Positions 29,977-33,738 of a stretch of DNA of 37,364 bases are shown piece after piece. This stretch comes from Clostridiales bacterium (GTDB taxonomy: Bacteria > Bacillota > Clostridia > Christensenellales > Aristaeellaceae). Both the position numbers and the translations under genes were made by a program. Where the stretch lies: assembly GCA_015056055.1 (NCBI GenBank), contig SVHC01000028.1, positions 1 to 37,364 on the forward strand, in the 5' to 3' direction. Under the pieces are notes generated by a model. The model ran no database searches, was not told where the DNA came from, and saw only the letters and a program-made list of their open reading frames with translations. How positions within the stretch are numbered: position 1 is the first letter of the stretch; each line of letters begins with the position of its first letter.

Positions 29977-30073
29977 TAATCAGAGTGAAGAATATAGCCG
30001 GTGTTTTCTGCGGCGGGTACAGATATGTTATCGCCTGTAAATGATGTGTATGGCATGAAACCATTTGGCTAAG

Positions 30074-30181
30074 ATAGCATTTAGGGGCTCATGGCATTCA
30101 GGGGGCTCTATGGCATTTAGAGGGCTTATGGCATCTGGGAGGCAGATGGCATTTAGGGGGCTCATGGCATCTGGGAGGCCG
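30074..30181 (+). repeat. Tandem array of 17-19-bp units based on the tRNA-Ala anticodon loop
   Basis: Six head-to-tail units start at 30074, 30091, 30110, 30128, 30146 and 30164 and run straight into the tRNA 3' half at 30182. Five begin with ATGGCAT (the first has ATAGCAT). ATGGCAT is exactly the 7-base anticodon loop (anticodon GGC) of the adjoining tRNA fragment. The next bases vary: TCAGG, TTAGA, CTGGG, TTAGG, CTGGG, against TCAAG in the tRNA, and then an RGG-x3 block. Units are mostly 18 bp, so a frame stays open by chance. No start or binding site supports translation. Confidence 0.85.
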
Positions 30182-30222
30182 ATGGCATTCAAGAGGTCAG
30201 CGGTTCGATCCCGCTTATCTCC
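30180..30222 (+). other. Left attachment site (attL-like), 43-bp direct repeat
   Basis: This 43-bp sequence recurs at 33452-33494 with a single change (C30212 versus T33484). It spans the anticodon loop to the acceptor stem of tRNA-Ala. Direct repeats of a tRNA 3' half that bracket a tyrosine recombinase gene are typical integration scars. Confidence 0.88.
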
Positions 30223-30226
30223 ACCA
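30182..30226 (+). pseudogene. 3' half of a tRNA-Ala(GGC) gene
   Basis: Anticodon loop ATGGCAT, 3' anticodon strand TCAAG, variable AGGTC, T-arm AGCGG-TTCGATC-CCGCT, acceptor strand TATCTCC, discriminator A and encoded CCA (30224-30226). The 5' half (acceptor strand, D-arm, 5' anticodon strand) is missing upstream, where the tandem units lie instead. It cannot make a tRNA by itself. An intact Ala(GGC) gene must be elsewhere if that tRNA is used. Confidence 0.85.
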
Positions 30227-30230
30227 AAAA

Positions 30231-30264
30231 GACCTGAAATCGTAAGATTTCAGGTCTTTTTTTC
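30231..30264 (+). terminator. tRNA terminator next to the left attachment site
   Basis: A perfect 11-bp stem GACCTGAAATC / GATTTCAGGTC with a GTAA loop, then eight T. It lies 4 bases after the tRNA CCA, so it looks like the original tRNA gene terminator. Confidence 0.92.
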
Positions 30265-30312
30265 GTCTGAAATCTGCCATTTTTGTCCATTCTGTGTGAT
30301 TTTTTCCAAGAG

Positions 30313-30366
30313 CCGCGGAACACTTGCACTCCGCGGAACTTTTAGTACCAGAATTAGTACCAGAAT
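30313..30366 (+). repeat. Arm-type repeat cluster, left copy
   Basis: CCGCGGAAC occurs twice, 18 bp apart (30313 and 30331), followed by two GTACCAGAAT words separated by TA (30345-30366). The same arrangement recurs at 32203-32263 and 33286-33340 in the same orientation. Its distance from the att core (about 120 bp) suits an integrase arm site. Confidence 0.75.
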
Positions 30367-30397
30367 GACCCTGTCACATAATGGACGGATTATCATG

Positions 30398-30946
30398 TTA
30401 TCCAACGTTCGGGAACTTGATGACCCTGCAGGAAGGTTCATCCGGACCGTCCGGGTCGCTGTGGCCTGTTGGAAAGGCTTTGCTGAACCGGTCAACGGCA
30501 TCCATCCGAATACTTTCCTGAACGTGTAAGTAGTGCTGCGTCATGCTCACATCGGCATGTCCCACGATACTCTGGATGGTAGAGAGGTCTACGCCCAGCG
30601 CCTGCATCTGGCTGACATAGGTGTGTCGACAGGAGTGAGGTGTCAGCAGTCTCACCTCAGGTATGGCTTCCAGTGCTTTGCGGAACTGATCCCGGAAGTA
30701 GGTGGGGTTGCAGGGCTGATCTACCTTGCGGGCTTCCCAGATGTACTTCCTGTCCGTCTCCCGTAATGCCACCGCGCAGTACCGCAGACTTTTGGGAACC
30801 GGGATATTCCGGTAACTGTCGCGGGATTTTGGAACGCCGATGGTGGCAGTCCCTTTCTGCATGTTGATGGCCTGCTCTACATGGATGACCGAGCCATCCG
30901 GTTCGATGTGGCGAGGCTCCAATGCAAGCAGCTCCTGAGATCGCAT
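30398..30946 (-). pseudogene. Tyrosine recombinase (integrase), catalytic domain only
   Basis: 182 residues of a phage-type integrase catalytic domain. MRSQELLALEP is the box I arginine region (normally preceded by TG), HSCRHTYVS is the H-x-x-R box, and GHADVSMTQHYLHV has the final His and the nucleophile Tyr. The arm-binding and core-binding N-terminal domains are gone. In the same frame a TGA lies just upstream. A ribosome binding site AAAGGAG followed by an ATG in another frame (30965) abuts the break, as if the start of a different gene was fused here. The protein is probably not functional. It sits next to the left att site, in the usual place for an integrase. Confidence 0.88.
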
Positions 30947-31093
30947 AGGTCATAGTTTCGGTCATATAGGAACTCCTTTCATGGGTAAAAATGTAGACAG
31001 ATTAAAACGGATTTTGTAGGTGTCATGGGAAAACATTCAACCACCTTTGATGTGGCTTCCGGAAACCCTTGAAATGACTGGCTTTTTGAGGGG

Positions 31094-31194
31094 TTAATTG
31101 TCTACGCTCGACCTCTTTTTTCGGGCGTAGTCGGCCTTTTGTTTGCGGTGTACTTCCGCAGCACAGTCGGGGCAGTATTTGGAATCCCAGAGTT
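31094..31194 (-). pseudogene. C-terminal fragment of a small zinc-ribbon protein
   Basis: Minus-strand reading gives LWDSKYCPDCAAEVHR, KQKADYARKKR and a stop at 31094-31096. A CxxC followed by a lysine/arginine-rich end is common in small proteins of Firmicutes mobile elements. An in-frame stop precedes it at about 31192-31194, where the Z1-like sequence of the other strand begins. It is therefore a remnant cut at a deletion junction. Confidence 0.45.
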
Positions 31195-32202: not shown

Positions 32203-32263
32203 GCGGAACAATGCTTTCACGCGGAACTTTTATACTGGAGTTATACCAGAATAGTACCAGAAT
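32203..32263 (+). repeat. Arm-type repeat cluster, middle copy
   Basis: GCGGAAC occurs at 32203 and 32221 (18 bp apart, as in the left copy), then a degenerate TACTGGAG, TACCAGAAT (32244-32252) and GTACCAGAAT (32254-32263). GTTCCGC follows in inverted orientation at about 32271-32277. It lies just beyond the end of the Fic gene, so Fic is bracketed by two of the three clusters. Confidence 0.7.
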
Positions 32264-32298
32264 TGGAAAAGTTCCGCAGAAACACAAAGGTTCCGCGC

Positions 32299-33234
32299 TC
32301 AGTCCTCAGCTCCTGATTTTTGAAGCCTTCGAAGGATCCGCGCCTGTGCTTCCAGCAGTTTTTCTAGTTCGATCTGAGACTGAAAACGAGCTTGGGCTTC
32401 CATGCAGACCTGCATTAGCGGCAGCGGATCCTTTTCCCAGCAACGGATACCGTCCAAATAGGCACTTCGGCGCTTATCATCCAGTATAAAAGGCGTAATC
32501 CCGTGGCGCAGACACTCTTTCAGCATCAGTAAACGGCCAATTCTGCCATTCCCATCATCGAAGGGATGAATATTTTCAAACTGTACATGGAGCTCCAGAA
32601 TATCCTGAAGGGTGACGGTGCGTAATTTCTCGTATTCCTGACACATGGCGGTTAGATTTGTGCTGATTTCTGAAGCAGGAATTTTGGCACCGGTTTTGAA
32701 GGGAACGCCTCCTGCGCGGTATACTCCGGCCTTGATTGGTTTGAACTTATGTCCACAGGTATCACTGAAAAGTGTGCTGTGCCATTTGAGGAACATGGCA
32801 GGCTTCAACTTCTTCATTGCCTCGGCGAGAACTGCGTCGACGCACAGAAAATGATTGCGCACTTCGATGAAATCATTGAGTTTCATGTTCTCGTTAGTAG
32901 ATAAAATCTTTCCTTTTTTGAAGAGATATTCTACGTGATTTCGCGTCAAACGGTTGCTGGACATGCGATTTGAGCTGTAAGACATATTAATTTGCAGATA
33001 ATTGTACAAATCTGCGTAACCGGAGCTGCGTTGCCGATGCAGCCTTCTAAGAAGTGAAGGCATGGCCGCGGGCTCAGATTCCTCGCGCTCCGGGCGAGGG
33101 GCATCATCTGGGATAAACCAGATCCCGTCATATATAACGGCCTCCGGAATGCGTTTTTCGCGGCAATAGCGCCGCACCAGCTGAACGGAAATGCCCCATT
33201 TCTCTGCGGCTTCCGCAACGGTGATCATACTCAT
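32299..33234 (-). CDS. Fic-family protein with N-terminal helix-turn-helix
   Basis: 311 residues. Residues 1-45 are a MerR/excisionase-like HTH (VAEAAEKWGISVQLVRRYCRE), then a helical linker. The Fic core has HPFDDGNGRIGR at 223-234, the complete catalytic motif HxFx(D/E)GNGRxxR with His223. Fic enzymes attach AMP or other nucleotide groups to target proteins. The inhibitory motif [ST]xxxE[GN] should fall at YSSNRMSSN (86-94), but the glutamate position is Ser92. The start follows AAGGAAG. It is intact while its neighbours in the element are broken, which hints at retained function as a toxin-like or regulatory enzyme. Confidence 0.92.
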   Translation of the reverse strand: MSMITVAEAAEKWGISVQLVRRYCREKRIPEAVIYDGIWFIPDDAPRPEREESEPAAMPSLLRRLHRQRSSGYADLYNYLQINMSYSSNRMSSNRLTRNHVEYLFKKGKILSTNENMKLNDFIEVRNHFLCVDAVLAEAMKKLKPAMFLKWHSTLFSDTCGHKFKPIKAGVYRAGGVPFKTGAKIPASEISTNLTAMCQEYEKLRTVTLQDILELHVQFENIHPFDDGNGRIGRLLMLKECLRHGITPFILDDKRRSAYLDGIRCWEKDPLPLMQVCMEAQARFQSQIELEKLLEAQARILRRLQKSGAED

Positions 33235-33285: not shown

Positions 33286-33340
33286 CCGCGAAACTTTTTA
33301 AACCGCGGGAAACTTTTCGTACCAGAATTAGTACCAGAAT
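33286..33340 (+). repeat. Arm-type repeat cluster, right copy
   Basis: CCGCGAAAC (33286) and CCGCGGGAAAC (33303), then GTACCAGAAT-TA-GTACCAGAAT (33319-33340), the same pair as on the left. A further GTACCAG is at 33357. It ends 112 bp before the right att core. Confidence 0.75.
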
Positions 33341-33451
33341 AAAAGCAAAACGTCCTGTACCAGTCGAAACGTAATGGAATTCAAAATAGCCATTCTGTGT
33401 CGTTTTGTCCAAGTATTCATATCATATTCACTTGTATGCATAACCTCATGA

Positions 33452-33494
33452 CGATGGCATTCAAGAGGTCAGCGGTTCGATCCTGCTTATCTCC
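33452..33494 (+). other. Right attachment site (attR-like), 43-bp direct repeat
   Basis: A copy of 30180-30222 with one mismatch. It runs from the base pair before the anticodon loop to the acceptor strand TATCTCC, then departs (GGC instead of the ACCA end). No 5' tRNA half and no tandem units precede it. A box CCATTCTGTGT...CCAAG at 33390-33413 also occurs at 30287-30310 near the left core. Confidence 0.88.
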
Positions 33495-33738
33495 GGCAAG
33501 AAAAACCTTGAAACTCTCATTTCTACATAAAAGAGATTGCAGATATGATTGTTGGTGCAACAGATAGCAGTCTTGATAAATGGGATAGTTCTTTCTTACG
33601 CGGGATAATAGTTGTGCACATGGATTGCTTACGCTGTTGAACATGGCTTGTGTGCACAGCGTCACGCTCAAAGACGGTTTCCGGTATCTGCGCGGGTGTA
33701 ACAATGTCATGACTCCGTCCGCGCTGTTATGGATATTA
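33495..33738. other. Intergenic DNA with no recognised feature
   Basis: No credible gene. Apparent minus-strand translation includes the familiar chance peptide produced by reading through tRNA sequence. A loose inverted pair GTGCACA / TGTGCAC lies at about 33614-33660. Presumably old chromosomal flank or element debris. Confidence 0.5.

Follow-up and report, generated by a model that had tools for sequence, protein, structure and literature searches.

An array of 18-bp units abutting a tRNA-Ala(GGC) 3' half at the border of a decayed integrative element

The stretch of DNA analyzed here (the window) comprises 37,364 nucleotides from a Clostridiales bacterium and represents contig number 30 of 80 in a genome assembly of 2.83 Mb. 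It harbors a decayed integrative element that is flanked by chromosomal genes encoding a polyphosphate kinase and a D-Ala-D-Ala carboxypeptidase (Table 1). A tRNA fragment stands at each border of this element (30182-30226 and 33454-33498), and the left one is directly preceded by an array of six head-to-tail units (30074-30181) with lengths of 17, 19, 18, 18, 18 and 18 bp. The first unit is headed by ATAGCAT and the other five by ATGGCAT, while the copy of ATGGCAT that follows the array at 30182 already forms the anticodon loop of the tRNA fragment. According to their tail sequences, the units follow the order A, A, A, B, A, B. Number, lengths, heads and positions of the units had been given correctly to the base in the original prediction, which did not yet include the second tRNA half at 33454, a 36-bp period of the array and a further ATGGCAT at 30050.

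Table 1. Features of the array and of the decayed element in the window.
Feature	Position	Strand	Remarks
Possible decayed unit 0	30050..30073	+	Head ATGGCAT, 24 bp ahead of the next one
Unit 1	30074..30090	+	17 bp, head ATAGCAT, type A
Unit 2	30091..30109	+	19 bp, head ATGGCAT, type A
Unit 3	30110..30127	+	18 bp, head ATGGCAT, type A
Unit 4	30128..30145	+	18 bp, head ATGGCAT, type B; folds with the next head as hairpin CATCTG-GGAGG-CAGATG
Unit 5	30146..30163	+	18 bp, head ATGGCAT, type A
Unit 6	30164..30181	+	18 bp, head ATGGCAT, type B; adjoins the tRNA half
3' half of tRNA-Ala(GGC), anticodon loop to CCA	30182..30226	+	Candidate attachment core, left copy; 100% identity over 45 bases to a tRNA-Ala of G161
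16-bp perfect inverted repeat with T run	30226..30261	+	After the core; stretch common to G268
Pair of 11-bp direct repeats TAGTACCAGAA	30343..30365	+	12 bp apart, arm-like, left end; same pair at L081 4487-4509 (G268)
Tyrosine integrase fragment	30398..30946	-	C-terminal catalytic part only; PF00589, E 2.1e-16, profile 36-170
MzaC fragment (MZA anti-phage system)	31204..31767	+	NCBIfam NF041933, PADLOC MzaC
Third, internal arm-like repeat cluster GCGGAACTTTTA / TACCAGAA	32241..32262	+	Within 32209-32280; repeat search
Fic/DOC family protein	32299..33234	-	Right part of element; PF02661; 68-70% DNA identity to G268 in two stretches
Arm-like repeat pair (TCGTACCAGAA, TAGTACCAGAA)	33317..33339	+	Right end; repeat search
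Second tRNA 3' half	33454..33498	+	Right border, no array; 3272 bp downstream of the left copy

The tRNA fragment has the appearance of an attachment core used by a tyrosine-recombinase element. The anticodon loop is described as one of three crossover subsites in tRNA genes (PMC4383910), and the 7 bp of the loop, together with the stem, correspond to the common arrangement of a 7-bp overlap and core sites (PMC8371274); a crossover in the anticodon loop is consistent with the borders of the element. At both ends, in the window as well as in a related element of genome G268, two TAGTACCAGAA repeats (up to one base off) lie 12 bp apart, and these paired 11-bp repeats are putative integrase arm sites. 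The exact repeat pair was found in none of the viral contigs. The internal GCGGAACTTTTA / TACCAGAA cluster looks as if two element ends had been fused. Of the integrase, a fragment of 182 aa is left that covers only positions 36-170 of the 172 positions of PF00589 and thus falls short of a complete enzyme. The MzaC-like fragment (187 aa; 145.9 bits compared to a cut-off of 1500; positions 110-293 of 806) appears to be a cargo remnant. No transfer gene was found among the subset of element ORFs that was scanned, and the integrase is broken. Having kept attL and attR in the form of two candidate cores with paired repeats at both ends, the locus resembles the CIMEs, i.e. decayed elements that retain both attachment sites, as they are portrayed in PMC5704250; the likeness extends to the missing full integrase, the cargo remnants and the signs of stacking. 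With the tRNA-borne islands assigned to subsite A by Islander, as described in PMC4383910, it shares the tyrosine integrase, a tRNA 3' fragment as core, the anticodon-loop subsite and a fragment at the border. Unlike the islands described there, the window has no intact tRNA copy at the borders or elsewhere in the assembly, its integrase is truncated, and an array lies ahead of the left core.

The relative in G268 measures 16 kb, and both of its ends are common with the window element. Its left end matches 30178-30946 with 92% and 30945-31183 with 89% identity; between these two pieces, G268 contains 923 bp (L081 5091-6013; L081 denotes G268:C30:1-20000) that are missing in the window. The right end matches 33306-33494 with 80% identity. 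Two ORFs that adjoin each other in one frame make up the split integrase of G268 and were scanned separately, and a ResIII/DEAD helicase gene is located left of the core there. A search for viral relatives of the C-terminal integrase ORF gave 16 pattern matches, none of which was confirmed. The unit is absent from both G268 borders. Instead, a long palindrome accompanies the left core there and pairs through it (z -7.5); at L081 4274-4340, this palindrome lies between two ATGGC copies within the CTTGA...TCAAG of the core. As an empty-site comparison, genome G001 (same genus, 83% complete) was considered, in which the polyphosphate kinase and carboxypeptidase genes are located on one contig. 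Since other genes lie between them and this contig contains neither a tRNA nor a core, G001 does not show the ancestral state.

Over all of its 45 bases, the left core is identical (100%) to positions 32-76 in an intact tRNA-Ala from genome G161, for which ARAGORN assigns the anticodon GGC. The same program detects no tRNA in the window, in agreement with the initial statement that the 5' half is absent. The copy at the right border is 92% identical to the left one over 51 nt, BLAST matches it with 98% identity over 41 nt, and the best in-register unit match at this core reaches 7/18. In the own genome, 63 places match tRNA families. Neither the 44 distinct ARAGORN-called sequences covering these places nor BLAST yielded an intact source tRNA in this possibly incomplete assembly. 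The source is foreign, lost or unassembled, because the closest 3' end among the 44 sequences has only 34/45 bases in common with the core and the own GGC tRNA is of another type. An intact target tRNA restored at a border was found neither in the window nor in the own assembly. Viral contigs contain the core at 106 sites, distributed over 104 stretches. After exclusion of five sites with a flank of less than 40 nt, the tRNA 5' half was present at 31 and absent at 70 of the remaining 101. Hence, an unpartnered 3' half is nothing out of the ordinary for attP or attR. It is the array that is unusual. Provided that the slippage reading given below is right, the locus is also a reminder for annotators that an isolated tRNA 3' half often represents an attachment core rather than a broken tRNA gene.

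The array exceeds chance by a wide margin. TRF reports a period of 18 (5.9 copies, score 105) and, with a better score of 151, a period of 36 (3.3 copies), and units 3 and 4 are 92% identical to units 5 and 6 over 36 bp. Among 1000 dinucleotide shuffles of 30040-30200, 111 gave a TRF score of at least 30 and the best one reached 65; a pattern derived from the units gave five matches in the window but none in 100 shuffles. With tandem units beyond chance, the locus is a candidate minisatellite, and the proposed in-register continuation into the 3' half of tRNA-Ala(GGC) stands well beyond chance. On its + strand, the window contains 12 copies of ATGGCAT. Five of these copies are array heads and two belong to the cores, while the others are confined to 2529, 4526, 16515, 26010 and 30050. 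The heads are less variable than the tails (p 0.012 when every choice of 7 of the 18 columns is considered; p 0.001 if the core is counted as a unit). It had been suggested that the tails still roughly follow the 3' anticodon strand, which holds only weakly: tails and core agree at 28/66 positions (column-permutation p 0.044) and, in purine/pyrimidine terms, at 60/66 (p 0.003). From this purine/pyrimidine resemblance it follows that the first unit may be an old duplicate of the core.

According to a related idea, the array would be what rearrangement has left of the absent tRNA 5' half or of anticodon arms arranged in tandem. A model of tandem anticodon arms scores 88, a value reached by 3.1% of 1000 tail-column shuffles and by none of 300 dinucleotide shuffles, and by eye the GGGGG..CTGGGAG of units 5 and 6 resembles the 5' half. 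However, an anchored alignment to the 5' half scores only 17, which is equalled by 14/70 control flanks and 11/200 shuffles, and the unanchored score is equalled by 144/500 shuffles. With these non-significant alignment scores, derivation from the 5' half was rejected, and the remnant explanation as a whole is improbable.

The open frame 30065-30529 spans the array, which raises the possibility of a piece of a coding repeat, and the fragmentation of the assembly into 80 contigs that of an artefact. In addition, 26 viral contigs contain three ATGGCAT heads spaced by 18 bp, in many cases as apparent coding repeats of a hexapeptide type. Yet, the frame has no Pfam match and overlaps the integrase fragment on the opposite strand, the units differ from each other with two of them being off-length, and relatives with a single unit exist independently. 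Furthermore, a T-arm was found near the first match per strand, to which this check extended, in 0/26 viral contigs. The coding reading was rejected on the basis of the viral look-alikes, the missing Pfam match and translation by hand, and either form of this explanation is very unlikely. The viral loci themselves (L218-L243), with ATGGCAT heads, 18-bp spacing and often apparent coding repeats of the DGI-K/E-AG hexapeptide type, are an unrelated look-alike.

Searches started from the sequence of the window itself uncovered two genomes, G143 and G382, with a single B-type unit 18 bp ahead of a partial tRNA core. In G143 (contig 23), the match extends over 41 nt at 90% identity with the phase kept, and its unit agrees with unit 4 at 15/18 positions, a level that none of the 37,046 other + strand 18-mers of the window reaches against any of five units. 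In G382, 25/27 nt match and the unit agrees with unit 4 at 17/18 positions. This match runs on beyond the query into a tRNA-like core, AAAAGGTCGGCGGTT, and therefore provides independent support. One head is one base off in each genome. Both sites (L245 about 1484-1527 in G382; L055 about 1500-1541 in G143) are intergenic and combine a unit with a cut-short tRNA-Ala(GGC) anticodon arm. The one in G143, where the core is shortened, lies just beyond a putative 5S rRNA gene, as read by eye, and the one in G382 lies 3' of a transketolase gene and a terminator-like hairpin. No integrase was found among the 6/11 listed ORFs scanned on the G382 contig and the 10/25 on the G143 stretch. Relatives with the array but without tRNA fragment or integrase had been regarded in the original prediction as evidence against its proposal; G143 and G382 correspond to this in part, in carrying one unit and no integrase in the tested ORFs, but they do so with a partial core present.

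The one-unit composite ATGGCAYCTGRRAGGCNNNTGGCATTCAARAGG is common to three genera. The unit-plus-core pattern was found in 2/309 family genomes (own and G143), the array pattern in 2/396 order genomes (own and G382), and among 391 class genomes only the own one matched; these three draws overlap. A two-unit pattern matched one contig, equal in length to contig 23 of G143, in the genome collection, a search that possibly did not include the own genome. No second array of this kind emerged from the genome, family, order and class searches. One further genome search scored at most two candidates per genome, which makes an absence there weaker than in the search of 309 genomes. Unit-plus-core patterns were absent from the viral contigs, and in phage and plasmid collections the tRNA part alone matches, among the matches listed. 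An unrelated dispersed minisatellite, the other finding named beforehand as adverse, is not what was encountered: the own genome holds one place with the array, and a 400 kb sample contains no unit-like 16-mer, so that a dispersed repeat family in this genome was rejected.

With a probability of roughly 0.6, we regard the array as a small noncoding minisatellite that arose at the left attachment junction of the decayed element by local amplification through slippage, and we take it that it has no required function. Replication slippage seeded at the junction was among the origins initially considered, and it fits best with the 36-bp repeat, the hairpins on one strand and the single-unit relatives. 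On the + strand, the array together with the first bases of the core folds at -22.7 kcal/mol (z -4.8; 0/200 shuffles as good), and unit 4 with the next unit gives a z of -6.7, whereas the - strand reaches a z of only -1.0. Slippage is favored because of this strand difference and the heptamer shared 18 bp apart. Since a single B-type unit with a partial core occurs in two other genomes, one unit would be older than this genome. In this scenario, the B unit and the anticodon loop would share ATGGCAT at a distance of 18 bp, and hairpins on one strand could let the polymerase slip; slippage or unequal exchange may then have proceeded in 18-bp and 36-bp steps to give six units. Stepwise duplication is suggested by the fact that period 36 beats period 18 and that the pairs 3+4 and 5+6 are near-identical.

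Bacterial minisatellites or VNTRs consist of short head-to-tail units with higher-order periods and one-base indels. Here, unit 1 is one base short and unit 2 one base long; in contrast to such repeats, the array abuts an attachment core in register. Strong tandem arrays are no rarity in the own genome, as seven TRF rows with a score of at least 100 mark them at six places within the 400 kb sample. These are imperfect parallels, because all cross open frames of at least 135 codons, including one of period 18/36 in a frame of 1036 codons. Against the slippage reading, the low variation of the heads could mean a constraint on the heptamer. Moreover, that the array ends exactly on the anticodon loop is explained by slippage only if the loop belonged to the seed. 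The purine/pyrimidine resemblance of tails and core and the fit to tandem anticodon arms, which is better than in 96.9% of the tail-column shuffles, count against it as well. The array was seen in one genome, and a change of its copy number between strains is only presumed.

The low variation of the heads also speaks for a functional docking array, in which additional core-type sites would catch integrases or raise the integration frequency. A 7-bp overlap and an 11-bp core site add up to the period of 18, and direct repeats are enriched beside such cores: TRF scores of at least 30 occur in 28/70 viral flanks compared to 40/597 background stretches. At a score of at least 50, however, these figures become 3/70 and 9/597. 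Moreover, 24 of the 27 listed flank repeats with a score of at least 40 have a period of 10-12 and all 27 lie 20-177 bp from the core, so that they resemble the element's own TAGTACCAGAA pairs; no 18-bp array abutting the core is among them. One viral flank (L195) contains an 18-bp repeat of different sequence (1.9 copies, 169 bp from the core). A unit head with up to one mismatch is in register in 0/102 viral flanks, after exclusion of four of the 106 sites with less than 20 nt, and the best in-register unit match is 11/18; several of these sites are near-copies of one another, and the flank counts are therefore not independent. An array beside other tRNA-Ala att sites, for which the original prediction suggested a search, was not encountered in the viral flanks. 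As the right border and both G268 borders are devoid of the unit, the integrase is truncated and paired 11-bp repeats, of the kind usual for docking, are found at other positions at both ends of the element, the docking function put forward earlier is disfavored and appears unlikely.

Tyrosine recombination is conservative, and excision restores the site. This bears on the proposal that the array is a pile of scars, in which each round of integration and excision at the anticodon loop left one 18-bp unit. The unit heads indeed correspond to the 7-base overlap expected of an anticodon-type site, and elements seem to be stacked, as indicated by the third arm-like cluster (32241-32262) and the helicase gene left of the G268 core. 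Tandem tRNA islands described in PMC4383910, however, each keep their own fragment and integrase. Likewise, for the ssrA repeats of Dehalococcoides, PMC3146451 describes several RNA-gene 3' fragments per chromosome that are read as serial integration, but there islands lie between the copies, which match the gene and involve a serine-family integrase, whereas the window has 18-bp units that directly follow one another in head-to-tail order and for the most part differ from the tRNA. Given a conservative exchange and the DNA retained between the fragments of stacked islands, scars of repeated integration are very improbable, in line with the low identity of tails and core and the lack of in-register heads in viral flanks. 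An array of this kind was not found described in the open-access literature, which leaves out most subscription papers.

As a speculative alternative that we consider most unlikely, the B unit and the anticodon arm might constitute a tiny hairpin insertion that would target and duplicate the 7-base overlap of tRNA-type cores, with repeated insertion or copying leading to a decoy array. G143, G382 and the window contain 11-bp versions between two loop copies, comparable to the palindrome between two ATGGC copies in G268. If this were true, an array of overlap regions would poison or decoy an integration hotspot. If, on the other hand, the slippage reading is right, a tRNA fragment of a mobile element can seed a minisatellite that resembles a designed docking array, and the locus would show how attachment scars age. 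The one-unit composite may serve as a small marker to trace an extinct or undiscovered family of elements that use tRNA-Ala(GGC).

The cargo of the two related elements differs, with the MzaC fragment in the window and DndC/D/E/F/G-like genes in G268. There, DndF-, DndG/DndC-, DndD/PbeC- and DndE-like genes are arranged in a row (L081 9395-14933) inside the tRNA-Ala(GGC)-bordered element. One ORF of this row (L081 10350-12422) matches DndG, and its last third matches the C-terminal part of DndC.
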